Below, in pieces: positions 4,535-44,161 of a DNA stretch of 45,011 nucleotides (position 1 is the first letter of the stretch; every line of letters begins with the position of its first letter). The DNA comes from a virus, in the IMG/VR virus record IMGVR_UViG_3300029999_000133, positions 1 through 45,011 of that record; one strand, written 5' to 3'. The translations under genes were made by a program, and so were the position numbers. The notes under the pieces are model-generated. The model was given only the letters and a program-made list of their open reading frames with translations. It did not search any database and was not told where the DNA came from.

Positions 4535-5176
4535 TCACAGCCCGGCTCCCTTCAGCGGGTTGTCGGTCCACGGGTCATAGGGTGGCGGCGGTCCGGCGAG
4601 TTCCCCTGTGAGCGAGTTCCGGTACCGCACACGCAGTCCGCAGATGACCGCCGGGTTTAGCTCCCGGTATTTGGCGAAGATGCCCTCGCAGCCCATCCCT
4701 TCCGAGATGTTGCAGGAGCGGCATAGCAAGCCCCTGATGTAGCCCGACGAGTGGGAGTGGTCCCTGACGAGGGGCTGACGGTGACCGCAGATGGCGCACC
4801 GGCCGGCCTGCCATTCATCCAGCAGAAGCTCGGCCCAGTCTTCGTTGCTTATGTACTGACGGGCAATTTCCGGGATCAGCGTCTTGACGCGCTCCATGTC
4901 GGCACTGGTGGTCGGCCCCCATGACCAGCAGGCGGGCTCGGTGGGCGGTGGGTTCGTCGCGACGAGGTAAGCGAAGAACGAGACTTCCCGGCTCTTGGCT
5001 TCCCCGTAAACCCGTCGCTCTTCCGTGCTCAGATGAGTTCGGCACACCTCAGGGGGCGTGCCCGGGATGGGCACCCACTCCACGCCGTTCGCCACACGCC
5101 AGTCCACGCATCCGTACTTGCAGCGTTTCTTCGTCCTCGCGGCCATCGCGGTGCACCGTCGGCTCTCCGGTTCCAT
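4535..5176 (-). CDS. Recombination endonuclease VII family protein
   Basis: 213 residues. The core at about 127-156 reads CAICG, then VRDHSHSSGYIRGLL, then CRSCN, the CxxC-DH-CxxC His-Me finger pattern of endonuclease VII (T4 gp49 family). In T4 this resolves Holliday junctions and branched DNA before packaging. A second N-terminal Cys cluster (CTAM...RCKYGC, then C and H near residue 45) probably binds zinc. The ATG overlaps the integrase stop (TGATG), so the two are translated together. Many phages carry such a nuclease in the late region; being coupled to an integrase is less usual. Confidence 0.85.
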   Translation of the reverse strand: MEPESRRCTAMAARTKKRCKYGCVDWRVANGVEWVPIPGTPPEVCRTHLSTEERRVYGEAKSREVSFFAYLVATNPPPTEPACWSWGPTTSADMERVKTLIPEIARQYISNEDWAELLLDEWQAGRCAICGHRQPLVRDHSHSSGYIRGLLCRSCNISEGMGCEGIFAKYRELNPAVICGLRVRYRNSLTGELAGPPPPYDPWTDNPLKGAGL

Positions 5177-6213
5177 CAGGAATCATCCCCGGGCAGGGCG
5201 GGCACGACGATCTTCATCCGGTCCACTGCGTCACGGAGCCCGCGCTGGCCGCGCCGATCATAGCTGGCGGTAGTGACAGGCGATGCGTGCCCGGCCAGCT
5301 TCTGCGCCTGCACAAGATCACCACCCGACTCGATGAAGTTGTCGATGAAGGTGCGGCGGAAGTCATGGGTGGACATCAGCTGCAATCCGGCTTGCTTATG
5401 GCGCTTCTGGATGACGCGGTAAATAGCGTTCGGCTCCATCGACTCGCCGATGTGGCTGTGCTTGTCTATCGACCGGAACATTGGGCCGCGGCGCTCGTTC
5501 AGCAGGGCGAGCCAGCGCTCCAGGTGCGGCACGGCGTCCTTGTGGATGGGGACAGTGCGTTCCTTGCGCCCCTTGCCGGTGATCTTCAGCCAGCGCCCGC
5601 GCGCATCGTAGTTCTCGATCAGCGCCTCGGCTGCTTCCGCGCGCCGCATTCCCGTGCACTGGAGGATGGTGATCAACGCGGAGTCCCGTTCCTGCAGCGG
5701 ACTGGGCGACCCAGCGCAGGCGGCAAGCAGTTTCTCGATCTCATCGCCGTGAACCTCGCGGCCCGCCGGCTCACGGTGAATCGTCTCATCCGGGATGTCC
5801 ACCGCGCTCACATAATCCTCGGCGCTCATCAGCCGGAGTCGCCGGCACTCCTTGAGTACTCTGCGGAGCGCGGCGAGGTGCTTGTTGACTGAGGATGTGG
5901 CGTATCCGTGCTCTATCAGGAGCGCCTTTATGCGGGTGGTGTGCTCGTAGCGGAGCAACCACCATGCGCGACCGCGCGGATTCGGGTAACGCTGATCCAG
6001 GGGAAGCGGCTCGCCGCGCTCAGTCTCGATCACCATGACAAGGATCTGGCGGAGGCAGCCTTCCATCACGCGCTTGGAGTCGGGGCTGCGGAGGCTGTCC
6101 AGGTACACCTGAACCGGGTCGGCGGGCAGGGTGCTCGCGTCATGGGCCGGCAGGAGGTCGCTCGTATAGATCGGGTCGGGTTCGCCCTGCGGGACGTAAG
6201 GCTGGATGCTCAT
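5176..6213 (-). CDS. int: Tyrosine integrase
   Basis: 345 residues with all catalytic positions of the tyrosine recombinase family: R190 in CTGMRRAEA, Lys near 211 in TGKGRKER, H283 and R286 in HDFRR, H309 in AGHASP and nucleophile Y318 in TASYDRR. The N-terminal 150 residues hold the core-binding SAM-like region. It would insert and excise the phage at a host att site, which marks the element as temperate. AGGGGAC lies directly before the ATG. The 167-nt region upstream (6214-6380) is AT-rich for this window and is the likely control region; I could not identify attP. Confidence 0.93.
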   Translation of the reverse strand: MSIQPYVPQGEPDPIYTSDLLPAHDASTLPADPVQVYLDSLRSPDSKRVMEGCLRQILVMVIETERGEPLPLDQRYPNPRGRAWWLLRYEHTTRIKALLIEHGYATSSVNKHLAALRRVLKECRRLRLMSAEDYVSAVDIPDETIHREPAGREVHGDEIEKLLAACAGSPSPLQERDSALITILQCTGMRRAEAAEALIENYDARGRWLKITGKGRKERTVPIHKDAVPHLERWLALLNERRGPMFRSIDKHSHIGESMEPNAIYRVIQKRHKQAGLQLMSTHDFRRTFIDNFIESGGDLVQAQKLAGHASPVTTASYDRRGQRGLRDAVDRMKIVVPALPGDDS

Positions 6214-6240
6214 GTCCCCTACATTACATGATCAAAGCCT

Positions 6241-6256
6241 GAGAAGTATCATTCTC
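6241..6256. promoter_or_regulatory. Candidate operator near integrase promoter
   Basis: gagaa and ttctc half-sites face each other across 6 nt in the AT-rich gap between the divergent integrase and GT4 genes. The position suits control of integrase expression. This is pattern only; no repressor gene is visible in the window. Confidence 0.3.
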
Positions 6257-6380
6257 TGCCCCTAGAATTTCAGACTCGGGGGAGCGGCATCCGAGGCAGG
6301 GCGAACCGGGGCGAGTCATTGTCTTCTACACGTCGTAGTTCCCGCTAGCCTTCTCCCATGACGATCACGTCCACCCGGCG

Positions 6381-7547
6381 GTGGTCCCGGTAAAGATCTT
6401 GTGGCATAGTAACGGGCCGACAATAACCGGTTACGGACAGCAAACACAGACCTGGGTGCCGCGTCTCGCTTCTCTCGGCCACCAGATGATCGTGTCGGCG
6501 TTCTACGGCATTCAGGGCATGTCGATTTCGTGGAACGGTGTCCCGATGCTGCCGGGCGCGAGCGACCCGTACGGGAACGACATTCTGGGTGAGCATGCCC
6601 GCCGCGTGGGCGCGGACATGATCATCACGCTGATGGATGCGTGGGTGCTGTCCCCGGAGCAGACGCAGGGCCTGAAGGTCGCGAACTGGATGCCGGTGGA
6701 CTGTGACCCGCTTGGGGTGATGGACCGGAGCTACCTGCAGCGCTCGGGGTCGGTGCCGATCACGATGAGCCGGTATGGGCAGAAAGCGATCGAGACCGCC
6801 GGGTTCAAGGCTCTCTACGTCCCGCACGGTGTCGACATGCAGAACATCTTCCGGCCGGTGAAGGACCGGATGCAGGTCCGCCGTGACCTTGGCCTGCCCG
6901 AGGATGCGTTCATCATCGGGATCAACGGTGCGAACAAGGACACGATCCGCAAGTCGTATCCGGCGCAGTTGCGGGCGTTCGCGGAGTTCCGCCGCCGGCA
7001 TCCCGAAGCGAACGCGATGCTACTCATCCACGCTTTGCCGCGGGCGCCGGGGGCGCTGGACCTGAACGCGATCATCGAGGATCAGGGCCTGTCCCAGTCG
7101 GTGCGGTTCTCCGACTGGTACACGTATGTGACGGGGCAGATCCAGCCGCCGAACCTGGCGGTCTGGTACAACTGCCTGGACCTGCTGAGCAACGCTTCCC
7201 ATGGGGAAGGGTTCGGCCTGCCGATCATTGAAAGTCAGGCATGTGGGACGCCCCCAGTCGTCACCGATCATTCAGCGATGACGGAACTGTGCGGTGCCGG
7301 GTGGATGGTGGGCGGGGAACCATTCTGGAATGGGCAGCTCGCCGGGATCACCGGGCATAACGCCTGGTGGAAAACCCCGTACGCCGATGAGATCACCGCA
7401 GCGTATGAGGCGGCGTACGCGGAGAAGGTCAGCGGTGAGGCGGACGTTCGGCGGAAGCAGGCCCGCGAGTTCGCGCTAGCGTTCGATGCGGACGTCGTTT
7501 TGGAAAAATACTGGAAGCCGGTGCTCAAAGAACTGGAAGAGATGTAG
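6381..7547 (+). CDS. GT4-type glycosyltransferase (GT-B fold)
   Basis: 388 residues. The N-terminal Rossmann half begins VKILWHSNGP with ITGYGQQT. The C-terminal half holds HGEGFGLPIIESQACGTP, the E-x7-E type nucleotide-sugar site of retaining GT4 enzymes. VPHGVD before the linker also fits the family. It transfers a sugar from a nucleotide donor; the acceptor is unknown. The GTG start at 6381 has only a weak ribosome site. The gene lies alone on the plus strand between the integrase and the glycan operon and converges on the latter with a 7-nt gap. Similar phage-borne enzymes modify DNA, virion proteins or host surface. Confidence 0.85.
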   Translation: MVPVKILWHSNGPTITGYGQQTQTWVPRLASLGHQMIVSAFYGIQGMSISWNGVPMLPGASDPYGNDILGEHARRVGADMIITLMDAWVLSPEQTQGLKVANWMPVDCDPLGVMDRSYLQRSGSVPITMSRYGQKAIETAGFKALYVPHGVDMQNIFRPVKDRMQVRRDLGLPEDAFIIGINGANKDTIRKSYPAQLRAFAEFRRRHPEANAMLLIHALPRAPGALDLNAIIEDQGLSQSVRFSDWYTYVTGQIQPPNLAVWYNCLDLLSNASHGEGFGLPIIESQACGTPPVVTDHSAMTELCGAGWMVGGEPFWNGQLAGITGHNAWWKTPYADEITAAYEAAYAEKVSGEADVRRKQAREFALAFDADVVLEKYWKPVLKELEEM

Positions 7548-38434: not shown

Positions 38435-41386
38435 CTAGCTGTACGGAGTGGTGTCGCTGTTCTGGAGCCCAGACAGTTGCCCCGAGTACCAGGGGGCATG
38501 CGAAATCAGGGCCTCGTACGAGAAGATCGAGTACCTGAAGGTCGCGTCGATCACGGGCCACGCGATACTCACGTAGTCCTGAACGGTCGAAACTTCCCAG
38601 GCGTTGGCCACGTTCGTCCACGTCTGCGGAAGCTGGTAGGACAGCAGCGTCGCGTTACCCTGCGTGTACCAGGGGTGAACGACGAGCTTGAGCAGGCTCC
38701 GGGTCAGCGGGTTCTGGAACTGACTCACGGCCGCGCCGACGGTGACGTCACCGACGCCGCCCTGCTGAATGAACAGCTGGTAGTTGGTCCCCGCGCCCTG
38801 GTTGATGACGTCGTTGGACAGGTTCGCGATGTCGATACCGGAGGAGACGATCTCCGCCGGGTCCGCGCGGAACGAGCCCGGGTTGGTCGACGTCGACTGC
38901 CACAGGTTCTTCAGCGCCGTGTAAATGGCGTTGTAGGACAGGTGGGTGCCGACGTTGTTGTTGTAGTACCCGCCGATCCAGTTGGTCGGCGAGGACGGGT
39001 AGATCCCCGCGTCCGCGGACAGGCCGGACAGGGTGGGAATGACACCCTCGAACCGGGTCGACGCACCAGTCCCGGAGTCGGCGGTCGGCGGGTTCGTGCC
39101 CGACGCCGGCGGGGTGCCCTGCAGCGTGTACTTCGTGCCACCGACACCCGACGCCGCCAGGTACTCGTTCGTGTTCGACGCCGACGTGTTCGTGGACACG
39201 TAGATGTTGTAGTTCATCGCCCCGACAACCGGGACGATGGTCACGTCCACGACCTGCCCGGACGTCGTGCCACCCGTCGAGGCGACACTGGAGACGACCG
39301 TCTCACCGAAGAAGTTCGTCGCAGTGACGAACACCTTGTAGTAGGTGTTGGTGCCCACCGTGGTCTCGTTCGAGCCTGCGGTGCGGAGCGTGACGGTCGG
39401 GGTGGAAGGGGCCGTGAGGTTCGCGGACGAACCCGCGATCAGCATGTACTCTTCCGAGCTTGTTACTACCCGCTAAGCGGGCGGGCGCGTCATTTCTGCG
39501 CGCCTCTGCGTGTCTCCACGCAGTTCGGACTCTATCTTGATCTAATGCAGTACCGTTTGATACATGAGCCCAAACCCTCATCTTGTCTGCCCTGACCGCG
39601 AGACCCTGGTGCGCCTGACGTCCGAGATGAACGACAGGCAGATATCCAGGCTCTTTGGCTGCACAAGCCCCGTTATCGCCAAGTGGCGCGACCTCTATGG
39701 AATACCCAGGTCGCCGCGTCAGTCGGGGGGTAATACAACCAAGTGGAAGACCAACCGTGATTACTTTGCCGAGATTGATACGCCCGAGAAGGCGTACATT
39801 CTTGGCTTCGTCATCGCGGACGGCCACGTGCGCAAGGAGGGCTACAAGCTTGAGATCAGCGTCAAGGAGTCTGATTCGAGCATTCTGGAGGCCATCGCCC
39901 GTGAGCTTGGCTGTGACGCCCCGCTCGGGTCGATGATCAACCACTATGACGGGTCACGCATGACGCGCCTGTACCTGTGCGGCAAGAAGCTCGTCAGTGA
40001 CCTGAACGCTCTCGGCGTCTTCCATAACAAGACCACCACCGCGACGTACCCGGTCATCCCGCATAAGTTCGAGCGCGACTTGGTGCGCGGCCTCTGGGAC
40101 GGCGATGGGCATGTCGGGCAGGGGATGTTCGATCTCATCGGGACACCAGCGGTCCTAGAGGGTGTCGTCACGGCAGTCCAGCGGCACACCGGCTGCCTAC
40201 TGCGACGTAACCTCAGGGGCAGGGACAGGAAGTACCTCTACGCCTACGGCACCCGCCGTGACGCGCCTGTCTTGCGCTGGATGTATTCCGATTCGAGCAT
40301 CGCGCTCGGCCGGAAGGTAAGGGCTGCTAGCTATTGGTACTGCTCTTAGATCCCGCGTGCATAGTCTCTGAACCTTCGCGTCGGCCGCTGGCTGCGACAA
40401 GGCGCGCTCGGCTGCTGATTACCCCTGCTGGCTAAGTTTTTAGAGCCGTCACGCTCGGGCTTTCGCCCCACGTTGTGGCCTAGCCAGGTGGCACGGGCGT
40501 TCCAGCAATTCTCGCGGTTTTAGCTGGGCAAAGAGTCTCAACCCAGCATCATCTCTTGCAGCATGATCAGGCTGGCAAGAGCGCTGATGTCCTCATATCC
40601 CTGGCCCGAGAACTGCGCCAGCCAGGAGAGCTGCTCGGTGATGCCGAGGAAGCGGTAGGGGACGTTGATGGTGGTTTCGGTCTGGCTGCCCGCTCCGGGC
40701 AGGTTCAGCGGCCACGTGCCGAAGCTGGAGCCGCTGACGAGCTCGGACAGGGAGATGTCCTTGACGGACTGGCCGCCGGTCTGGGAACCGGAGATGCCGG
40801 TGATCAGCCGCTCGATGAGGCTCGCACCCTGGCCCGCGGGCCTGGGGAACTTGTTCCGGTAAACGGTATAAACCGGATAAACGAGCCGGGACGGTGCAAG
40901 GAGGTTGAAAGGGGTCAAACCGGACACGGAGCCGATACCGAGGTTACCCGCAGTAAACGACCGTGTGAGATCCGGATTCATCTGCCCGAGGATCTGCCCG
41001 AGCTGCTCCCCCATGGACGGCGCGGACAGCGCGGTCTGGAGGGCACCGAACTGGGACATGAAGCCGCCGTTGAACGACTTCACGACACCGGACTTGTTGA
41101 CGAACCCTTCCCGTACCGCCAGGCGAAGCTTGGTGGCGGCCTCGGAGGCGCGGAGGGTGATGTCGGTCGGGTCACTCAGGGGCTGGTTGCCGCCCTTGGG
41201 TGCGAAACCGGCGCCCTTCACAAGGTCGGGCATCAGGGACTTGAGAGCATCACCCGTGGTGTTGTGCTGGGCGATGTCCGCCTGGCTTACGGGCTGCGCG
41301 GAGCTCCCGTAGAGGGCGGTGGTGAGGGCATCGGTGCCTGGCTGCGGTGCGCTGTCAGGGCGGATGTCTTCGAGGAGGTCGGCCAT
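38435..41386 (-). CDS. Major capsid protein, gene split by a group I intron
   Basis: Exon 1 is 40541-41386 (282 codons) and exon 2 is 38435-39454 (339 codons plus stop); spliced product 621 residues. Exon 1 starts MADLLEDIRPDSAPQPGTDA and ends SLIMLQEMMLG; exon 2 starts EEYMLIAGSSANLTAP. Together they give LQEMMLG-EEYMLIAG, an uninterrupted HK97-like capsid region as I know it from actinophages. Helical N-terminus, then the P-domain-like and E-loop regions. Without splicing, translation ends at the TGA that begins in the intron's first base. AAGGAGA precedes the ATG. The protein forms the head shell and is likely trimmed by the neighbouring protease. Confidence 0.88.
39455..40540 (-). mobile_element. 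Group I intron in the major capsid gene
   Basis: 1086 nt. P1: exon GCTGGGT (40541-40547) pairs with intron GCCCAGC (40523-40529), giving the required U-G pair at the 5' splice site. P10: intron CTCTTT (40530-40535) pairs with exon-2 GAAGAG. Core elements: P AATTGCTGGAA, Q AATCAGCAGCC, R GTTCAGAGACTATGCACG (40356-40373), S AAGATAGAGTCC (39527-39538). P9 stem CTGCGTG/CACGCAG with GAGA loop (39506-39523), further P9.x stems, a GAAA tetraloop in the P5 region, and a terminal G at 39455. The endonuclease gene occupies the loop between R and S. Confidence 0.92.
39564..40349 (+). CDS. LAGLIDADG-type homing endonuclease, antisense inside the intron
   Basis: 261 residues. Two LAGLIDADG helices: AYILGFVIADGHV at about 80 and LVRGLWDGDGHV at about 175, each with the metal-binding acidic residue. 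An N-terminal helix-turn-helix-like part (MNDRQISRLFGCTSPVIAKW) may add DNA contact. It should cut the intron-free capsid gene and so spread the intron. The gene lies on the strand opposite the intron RNA, so it needs its own promoter and the intron RNA cannot serve as its message. Only weak ribosome site before the ATG. Codon use is less GC-biased than that of the neighbours, a sign of separate origin. Confidence 0.88.
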   Translation: MSPNPHLVCPDRETLVRLTSEMNDRQISRLFGCTSPVIAKWRDLYGIPRSPRQSGGNTTKWKTNRDYFAEIDTPEKAYILGFVIADGHVRKEGYKLEISVKESDSSILEAIARELGCDAPLGSMINHYDGSRMTRLYLCGKKLVSDLNALGVFHNKTTTATYPVIPHKFERDLVRGLWDGDGHVGQGMFDLIGTPAVLEGVVTAVQRHTGCLLRRNLRGRDRKYLYAYGTRRDAPVLRWMYSDSSIALGRKVRAASYWYCS

Positions 41387-41425: not shown

Positions 41426-44161
41426 TCATGCGTGTGCGTTCTTGGTCAGGCCCAGGCGTTCGGTGAGGAACTTCCAGGCGTTTTCGCGTTGTTCCGGGTC
41501 AGTGCTGTTCTGCCACTGCTCGTACATGGCCTTGTAGGCCACGTCCTGCACGCCCGCCGGGCGTTCGGGACTGTCCAGCATCCCCGCCGGGGGTGCTGTG
41601 GTCTTGTTGAGGGCGACGCCGCGGTAGGCGGCGACCCTGGGGTCAGGCTGGTCAGCCATCGCGTCGAGGAGTTTCTGCTGGGCGTCGAGGCGCTCAATGA
41701 GGGGTGCCTGAGCCTCGGCGACGGCGGACTTGATGAGGTCCGGGTTGAACGCTTTGAGGGTGGCCCCGACGGCATCGCCTTCGACAACCGTGAGTGGCTC
41801 GGCGGTGTTCGCACCACCACCACCACCGGCCGCCTTGGTGACCGGCTCGGGTAGCGGCTCCATGCCAAGATCGGCCCGCGCGGAGTTGACGGGGTAGCCC
41901 TTGATGATGGCGTCGAGGAGTTCCCGCTGCTGCTTCCGGGCTGCCTTCCGGGCCGCCTTAGCGGTGGCTGCGGCCTCCTCGAACTCGGTCACGCTGTTCG
42001 CGATGACCTCATCTGCGGCTGCCTTGGTGGCGCCGTGCGGGACGGGACCGCCGACACCCGCGGGGACAGGCCGGGCGTTCGACGGGGGCTCCCCCATCCG
42101 GCCGGGGCCGGCCATGGGGCACAGGTCGGGGAAGGTGGAGGCGATGTGGTCGTGCATGTTCCTCATGGCCTGCTGGGCGTTCTGCCGTTGCACCTGCGTG
42201 TAGTACACGCGGGACGGGACACCGGGCACCTCGGGGGCCGCGAGGGGCATGGGGTGGCCGGGGTCGTTGTCCGGGGAGTCCGCGGCATGCCCGTCGGTGA
42301 TGAGGTCCCGCTGGTAGCCGGATGCGGCGATGTGCTCCGGGTGGATCGGAGACGTGTGCGGTGCGGCGTGGCCGGGGGACAGGGCACCGTGCCCGGCGGT
42401 GATGGGTGGCCGCTTGAACCGTTCCGCGGACAACTCGCCCGGGGTGGGGGCGGATCCGGGGCCGGGGTTCGCGTCCTTGAACGCCTTGAACGCCTCGTGA
42501 CGGAGTTCGTCGGCGAGGCCGGGGGTGACGGCTTTCAGGGTGACGGCGGTCTCCACGAGTTTGCCCGCTTCTTGTGCCTGCTCCAGTGCTCCCGTCGTCG
42601 CGGCTGAGAGGGTTTTGTCGAGCCACGACTGAATGTTGATCGCGGAGAAGTCCACGCCGGGGTAGCTCTTGGCGACGTCGGCGGGGGCGTACGCGGCGCA
42701 GGTGAGGTCATGGAGCGTCCCCATCTCGCTGTCCACGCCGAGCGCCTTGTGGCGGGCGGCCACAGCCATCACCGCGGCGTCATCGTCTGCTTTGACGCTG
42801 GAGTCGGGGACGGTGGGCAGGCCGGCGTCGTGCTCGAGGGATTCGATTGCGGGGCCGTCCGGTTCCCGGTGCGGCGGCGCGGGTTCGATGTGCTCACCGG
42901 TCACCCCATCGCCCGGGGTGGGCTCAGCGGCTTTCTTCGCCATCATGGGGGCGCCGCATTTGCCGCAGAACTTGGCCTTGGCCTTGTTCATGCCCTTGCA
43001 CTTGGGGCACGGGATCTTGGGCTTCTTGGCCATGTCCGGCGCGGCAGCCTTCTCTTCGGCTGCGGCCTCAGGGGTGGCGGCCTTGTCCATGGCGTCAGCG
43101 TCGGAGTCGGTGTCGTCGTCGTCCCCGTCGTTGTGGTGCAACTGCGGGGCGTCACCGCCGTCGTCCTTCACGACAGCGGCGGGGGCCGCGACGGCATCGG
43201 GCTCGGTGGGCATCGCCTTGGCGGCATCCACGTCATCGGCCTTCTTCGCGTCGTCCTCATCCAGTGGGTTAGCCACACCGAGCTCCTTAGCGCGCCGCGC
43301 GATCAGGGTCCGGGCCGCCCCGGTGTCCCCGTGGCCCGACCGGGCGAGGGTGGCGGCGTTTCCGAGATCCTCGGCGTTCTCAATCGGGTAGGACAGGTTG
43401 GGTAGTGCTTTGCCTTCGCTGGCCAGCCGGCGGCGGGTCGCAGTGTCGATGTTCCGTTTGAAAACGGCTTCCTCGGTCGCGGTCATGGCCTTGAAGACGT
43501 CCAGTTCGCGGTCCCCGGCGGTCTCGCGGTGCTTGAGCAGTTTCGCGAGGTCGCCGGGTGAGAAGGTGATCTGCGCGGACGTGGGCACGTCCACATTCAC
43601 CGTGTCGGCCTTGGTGAGCAGGTCGTCGGCGCCGATGACTTTGCCGGTGAACTCGCATGTCCCGTCCCCGGCGGCCTTGGCGATCTGCATGTAGCAGGAA
43701 CGGTTCGCGGGCCGGTCCACGAGGGAAATCTCGGCGAGCTCGCCGCCTTTGATGATGCCGTTGCGGGCTTTGCCAGTGACGTCCCGGACGATCAGCGGTT
43801 TCGCGATCCCCACGGAGAACGCCCGCAGGTGCCCCTTCCTGACGAGCCGCTGGGCGACCGGCTCATCGATGGCGGCCTTCACCCAGTGGGCGCCGTCCCC
43901 GTCCCGGTCGATCTCGACTTTGACACCGGATCCGGCGGGGTCACGCTGGGAGTTGTGCTGGACGCGCACGTTGGGGCCGGTGGAGAACCAGGATTTGAGG
44001 GCCTCACCGGACCAGTCCTTGTCGACCACCTGCTCATCCGAATCAACGTCGGGGGTGGTGGCCTTGCCGTAGACGTAGAGCGTGTCCCCGTCTTCCTCCA
44101 TCTTCTCGATGGGGAATGAGGTGTAGACGATCTCCTGGTCTGGTGCGAGGGTCGCGGTCAT
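41426..44161 (-). CDS. Prohead protease fused to scaffold-like region, 911 aa
   Basis: AAGGAGG before the ATG. Residues 1-160 are an HK97-type (S78) prohead protease: VRVQHNSQRDPAG holds the catalytic His, HLRAFSVGIAKP the catalytic Ser, and LAEISLVDRPANRSC the third conserved block. From about 165 the chain is Ala/Asp/Lys-rich and largely helical, as in scaffolds, with an acidic stretch (DDGGDAPQLHHNDGDDDD). Near 385-410 is a double CxxC zinc ribbon (CPKCKGMNKAKAKFCGKCG). The last 350 residues are helical (TATAKAARKAARKQQRELL). Fusion of protease and scaffold is known in phages; the zinc ribbon inside is unusual. Confidence 0.85.
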   Translation of the reverse strand: MTATLAPDQEIVYTSFPIEKMEEDGDTLYVYGKATTPDVDSDEQVVDKDWSGEALKSWFSTGPNVRVQHNSQRDPAGSGVKVEIDRDGDGAHWVKAAIDEPVAQRLVRKGHLRAFSVGIAKPLIVRDVTGKARNGIIKGGELAEISLVDRPANRSCYMQIAKAAGDGTCEFTGKVIGADDLLTKADTVNVDVPTSAQITFSPGDLAKLLKHRETAGDRELDVFKAMTATEEAVFKRNIDTATRRRLASEGKALPNLSYPIENAEDLGNAATLARSGHGDTGAARTLIARRAKELGVANPLDEDDAKKADDVDAAKAMPTEPDAVAAPAAVVKDDGGDAPQLHHNDGDDDDTDSDADAMDKAATPEAAAEEKAAAPDMAKKPKIPCPKCKGMNKAKAKFCGKCGAPMMAKKAAEPTPGDGVTGEHIEPAPPHREPDGPAIESLEHDAGLPTVPDSSVKADDDAAVMAVAARHKALGVDSEMGTLHDLTCAAYAPADVAKSYPGVDFSAINIQSWLDKTLSAATTGALEQAQEAGKLVETAVTLKAVTPGLADELRHEAFKAFKDANPGPGSAPTPGELSAERFKRPPITAGHGALSPGHAAPHTSPIHPEHIAASGYQRDLITDGHAADSPDNDPGHPMPLAAPEVPGVPSRVYYTQVQRQNAQQAMRNMHDHIASTFPDLCPMAGPGRMGEPPSNARPVPAGVGGPVPHGATKAAADEVIANSVTEFEEAAATAKAARKAARKQQRELLDAIIKGYPVNSARADLGMEPLPEPVTKAAGGGGGANTAEPLTVVEGDAVGATLKAFNPDLIKSAVAEAQAPLIERLDAQQKLLDAMADQPDPRVAAYRGVALNKTTAPPAGMLDSPERPAGVQDVAYKAMYEQWQNSTDPEQRENAWKFLTERLGLTKNAHA

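Follow-up and report, generated by a model that had tools for sequence, protein, structure and literature searches.

The window analyzed here, a 45,011-nt stretch of an uncultivated soil phage (IMG/VR virus record IMGVR_UViG_3300029999_000133, positions 1 to 45,011), very probably carries a mobile group I intron in its probable major capsid gene, with a LAGLIDADG homing endonuclease encoded antisense to that gene; we assign this interpretation a probability of about 0.9. In the proposed mechanism, a guide sequence would hold the 5′ splice site in P1, the intron RNA would splice itself out, and codons 282 and 283 would be joined to give a normal 621-amino-acid (aa) protein. The endonuclease, encoded on the other strand in the P8 loop and thus leaving the ribozyme core intact, would need an antisense transcript of its own, and the enzyme would probably cut uninterrupted 282/283 alleles, whose repair would copy the intron into them. 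From the sequence we infer antisense expression, the cutting of empty alleles, self-splicing, because every structural requirement is present, and homing, because of the enzyme family, the selection that the protein shows, and the intron's patchy occurrence.

The preliminary description of this DNA had placed a group I intron at 39455–40540 and joined its flanking exons in frame as LQEMMLG/EEYMLIA, and both proposals held up. In PHROG profile comparisons, the two exons match the same family, phrog_13692, in order (Table 1). The predicted 5′ splice site falls after position 40541 (GCTGGGU^UGAG) and the 3′ splice site before position 39454 (AAGCUCG^GAAGAG), which gives a joined-exon DNA junction of GCTGGGT/GAAGAGTAC in phase 0 and the 621-aa product; left unspliced, the frame meets a TGA stop 3 nt past the 5′ exon. 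Intron-free relatives align with the joined product through the 282/283 junction without a gap. An assembly error is made less likely by near-identical copies of the region in two other contigs (3300037349_000086 and 3300038465_000078). An intein at this position was also considered, and it is ruled out by the early TGA, the U^...G^ junctions, and the ribozyme core.

The anatomy of the intron is that of group I: a P3–P8 core with P, Q, R, and S elements, a 7-base-pair (bp) P1 including the U.G pair at the splice site, a P10 of 6–7 bp, a P9 loop of the GNRA type (GAGA), a G as the final intron base, and a restored reading frame. Every element that the preliminary description had named was found where it had been placed. 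The minus-strand search with the Rfam model RF00028 that it had recommended gave a full-length match (E = 1.7e-4 in a 1.4-kb search), though one below the curated cut-off. An alignment of the introns found at codon 282 in six phages, the window included, showed a compensatory change (both sides of a pair changed, with pairing kept) in at least one sequence at 38 of 89 consensus pairs.

Table 1. Positions of the predicted intron, its ribozyme elements, the antisense endonuclease gene, and the flanking genes in the window
Feature	Position	Strand	Evidence
Group I intron, 1,086 nt	39455..40540	-	RF00028 E 1.7e-4; same-site homologous introns
5′ exon, probable major capsid gene, codons 1-282	40541..41386	-	phrog_13692 positions 33-146, E 9.6e-13; junction aligned in intron-free relatives
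3′ exon, probable major capsid gene, codons 283-621 + stop	38435..39454	-	phrog_13692 positions 195-489, E 6e-37
LAGLIDADG homing endonuclease gene, 261 aa, antisense in P8 loop	39564..40349	+	PF14528, phrog_4645, dN/dS
P1 exon strand GCUGGGU, U40541.G40529 at splice site	40541..40547	-	
P10 intron strand CUCUUU, pairs with 3′ exon GAAGAG 39454-39449	40530..40535	-	
Internal guide sequence GCCCAGC, intron strand of P1	40523..40529	-	
P element GAAUUGCUGGAA, P4 5′ strand	40500..40511	-	RF00028 match, covariation alignment
Q element GGGUAAUCAGCAGCC	40410..40424	-	RF00028 match, covariation alignment
R element GUUCAGAGACUA, P7 5′ strand	40362..40373	-	RF00028 match
P8 5′ strand, overlaps antisense ORF end	40336..40352	-	covariation alignment
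P8 3′ strand	39539..39554	-	covariation alignment
S element AAGAUAGAGUCC, P7 3′ strand	39527..39538	-	RF00028 match
Upstream gene, 911 aa, head-protease-like N-terminus	41426..44161	-	phrog_9427 head maturation protease E 8.7e-6; phrog_617 E 6e-6

Relatives were gathered by searching fetched viral contigs with the joined protein (tblastn). About 64 contigs carry the gene in one piece, so the intron-free relatives that the preliminary description had suggested looking for do exist, and about 20 phages carry interruptions. Five of these other phages have a homologous intron at the identical 282/283 boundary: L031 (1,132 nt), L027 (311 nt), L032 (317 nt), L033 (327 nt), and L034 (309 nt). The L031 intron contains the same antisense open reading frame (ORF) as the window, and the other four have none; three of those four ORF-less introns scored 56–62 bits with RF00028, above the cut-off, and the L032 intron scored 24.9 bits. 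With ORFs removed, the six introns share 65–79% identity. L027, with a capsid protein 66% identical to the window's, has an intron that shares 78% identity with the window intron, while codon 282 is uninterrupted in L007 (90%) and L077 (88%), the nearest relatives by capsid protein. Intron identity is thus out of step with host distance, the pattern of a mobile element. At this one codon boundary, empty sites, introns with no enzyme gene, and introns with one form a natural series.

The assignment of the antisense gene in the R–S loop to the LAGLIDADG family, also made in the preliminary description, was borne out by Pfam matches above cut-off to LAGLIDADG_3 (PF14528, E = 8.6e-8) and Hom_end (PF05204, E = 1.7e-6) and by a match to PHROG 4645, "endonuclease" (E = 3.5e-38); the ORF lies on the plus strand and the interrupted gene on the minus strand. 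Its motif stretches are AYILGFVIADGH and DLVRGLWDGDGH. The ORF fills the P8 loop, with its stop codon inside the P8 5′ strand, and a 63% identical version of this gene, likewise antisense in the P8 loop, is present in L031. Between these two genes, differences at the three codon positions number 72, 53, and 114, and nonsynonymous (dN) and synonymous (dS) divergences are 0.28 and 0.96 (Nei-Gojobori; dN/dS about 0.29), a pattern indicating that the antisense frame is selected as a protein. A search of the viral contigs for relatives of the antisense enzyme returned only three contigs, all already known, and phage intron endonucleases of PHROG 4645 are 26–30% identical to it over more than 90% of its length.

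Two observations on related endonucleases stand beside these results. The L031 endonuclease frame (6195–7058) runs about 22 codons longer, across P8, the P3 3′ strand, and the R element; ribozyme core and protein would there be encoded by one stretch of DNA. Sense-oriented relatives of the window endonuclease (28–34% identity) lie directly downstream of the capsid gene in L032 (2894–4195) and L031 (9298–10080); they are apparently free-standing, and possibly the source of the intron-borne gene.

The antisense arrangement also allows a regulatory interpretation, in which the endonuclease transcript would pair with the intron and tune its splicing, placing capsid output under combined ribozyme and antisense control. 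The orientation and the P8 location would permit such pairing, and LAGLIDADG genes in antisense orientation turn up in three cases unrelated to one another. We nevertheless consider regulation of this kind very unlikely, given that other introns of the same gene carry DUF559-type genes in the sense direction, that introns at the same site lack an ORF altogether, and that most relatives have no intron, which implies that the capsid gene does not need ribozyme or antisense control.

Several results weigh against the mobile-intron interpretation, and they concern the ribozyme, the expression of the endonuclease, and the identity of the interrupted gene. The RF00028 score of the window intron is 27.0 bits, short of the curated 50 bits, and an Rfam scan of the whole window at the gathering cut-off listed nothing; we attribute the low score to the 800-nt insert that separates the two P8 strands. 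Such a score could mean a decayed intron that no longer splices or encodes a dead endonuclease, leaving a truncated 282-aa protein or a defective phage. This is extremely improbable, however, because P1, P3–P8, and P10 are intact with covariation, the 3′ exon is open and conserved, the endonuclease retains its low dN/dS, and the same sequence is found in three contigs. A search for a sigma-70-type promoter for the antisense gene gave no match, which is weak evidence either way.

As for the identity of the gene, AlphaFold models of the protein, built from 3-sequence and 43-sequence alignments, were poor and of low confidence, Foldseek searches with these poor models as queries gave nothing meaningful, and a sequence search of the PDB gave no match. 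Together with the fact that phrog_13692 carries no assigned function, this leaves some room for another structural or head gene in place of the major capsid gene. We regard that alternative as unlikely, since the gene directly follows a head-maturation-protease-like gene, two members of its family weakly match a major head protein PHROG (E = 0.0017), and its length with an immunoglobulin-like (Ig-like) insert fits a capsid protein. The preliminary description's statement that the major capsid gene is split is accordingly kept in part: there is an intron in a probable capsid gene, and "major capsid" is our inference from gene order and the weak family link. A search of a phage collection found a single distant capsid relative, Thermoanaerobacterium phage THSA-485A (27%), and a search of genome contigs for a capsid relative found none, for which reason we make no host assignment.

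Elsewhere in the window, an integrase match at 5176–6213 (phrog_1, E = 8.5e-40) suggests that the phage may be temperate. Upstream of the probable capsid gene, the 911-aa protein far exceeds the usual length of a prohead protease and has a weak mid-protein zinc-ribbon match below the Pfam cut-off.

Looking across the family, we predicted intron junctions by requiring a U before the insert, a G at its end, and an uninterrupted protein, which placed introns at about codons 150, 153, 158, 165, 166, 171, 173, 243, 269, 279, 282, 577, 578, and 583; the interruptions that L076 and L082 carry near codon 176 have no exact site in this list, nor do those of L075 and L085. Removing the predicted introns restored a full-length product in 10 of the 11 genes tried, and in the eleventh (L033) the last exon runs past the end of its contig. 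Four introns are predicted in L031 (278, 1,132, 304, and 284 nt) and four in L017 (contig 3300009698_000018, 1665–4991; 1,345, 269, 1,044, and 323 nt), the latter with exons of just 29 and 27 nt between introns and with sense DUF559-type genes in two of them. L033 has three introns and the apparent start of a fourth.

Two ribozyme types are represented among these sites. By blastn with the window intron, core matches of the first type occur at sites 150, 153, 165, 166, 243, 279, and 282. Among them is the site-243 intron of L077 (contig 3300032805_000001, 6727–7516), whose core is 92% identical to the window's over 124 nt and which differs from it in both site and enzyme; even given alone to Rfam, this intron had no match. 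The L033 insert at site 243 had no blastn match to the window intron and does not belong to this type. The second core type is common to 12 short introns at sites 158–173 and 577–583 (about codons 158, 171, 173, 577, 578, and 583), with compensatory changes at 47 of 75 consensus pairs among the 12. One of the 12, the codon-173 insert of L032 (705–924), lacks the last part of the core and may be degenerate or wrongly bounded.

Antisense LAGLIDADG genes in this family occupy the P8 loop at site 282 in the window and L031 and the stretch between Q and R at site 243 in L077, where the 220-aa ORF has the motif LAGILDADG, is weak in Pfam, and has a relative in Streptomyces phage Anedea annotated as LAGLIDADG. 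The DUF559-type genes, found at sites 165 and 269 and close to codon 176, have the sense orientation. An antisense gene may escape the strong late expression of capsid mRNA; the sense DUF559-type genes indicate that such an escape is not required. On balance, we favor a history in which one intron lineage spread to at least seven sites while swapping endonucleases, with a second type beside it, LAGLIDADG genes antisense and DUF559-type genes sense, and with up to four introns and 27–29-nt exons presumably spliced in the most demanded transcript. With related introns at many of its other sites in relatives, the probable capsid gene is a hot spot for elements of this kind. The series at the 282/283 boundary and the near-identical cores at different sites of one gene bring two questions within direct reach of experiment: by what route group I introns arrive at new sites, and how several ribozymes in a late structural gene can be tolerated by a phage.

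The closest known system is mycobacteriophage LittleE, in which a capsid-gene group I intron with a bottom-strand LAGLIDADG ORF was shown to splice by reverse-transcription PCR and protein sequencing (Pope et al. 2013, PMC3706429). In the LittleE record, gp14 lies on the minus strand inside major capsid gene 13, and the intron matches RF00028 (E = 4.9e-5). The layout of a capsid-gene intron with an antisense LAGLIDADG gene is therefore already known, which leaves unsupported the preliminary description's view that antisense endonuclease genes are reported mainly from eukaryotic nuclear introns, and splicing of the same layout in vivo counts in favor of our interpretation. Both introns follow a U and end in G; they differ in that LittleE's sits at an unrelated site in the capsid sequence, its 177-aa enzyme is unrelated (BLASTP against the window's enzyme gave no significant match), its ORF follows the core instead of filling the P8 loop, and its splicing is proven, whereas splicing in the window is predicted. 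The LittleE layout is thus not a one-off: on no fewer than three occasions, antisense LAGLIDADG genes have entered introns of capsid or probable capsid genes, each time at a different position: the P8 loop (window), between Q and R (L077), and after the core (LittleE).

Other comparisons are more distant. As described in PMC9548176, nuclear ribosomal DNA (rDNA) introns likewise carry endonuclease genes antisense to the intron, but these are His-Cys box enzymes in eukaryotic rDNA. The window's own enzyme family includes the "intron-encoded putative endonuclease" of Staphylococcus phages SA11 and StAP1; unlike the window gene, the two closest members among the records examined, from Lysinibacillus phage LC76P1 and Alicyclobacillus phage KKP_3916, share a strand with their neighbors. 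Essential phage genes with more than one group I intron are known from Twort (one gene with three introns, going by a title cited in PMC11878797), from Bastillevirinae (polymerase and terminase genes with two or three), and from Jug phages (terL in 2–3 fragments), and in the open papers to which our search was limited, the numbers reported for a single phage gene are two or three introns. In the window's family, by comparison, the host is a probable capsid gene; what goes beyond the published cases we found is introns at about 14 sites, four predicted in each of L017 and L031, exons of 27–29 nt, and one lineage at seven sites with different endonucleases or none.
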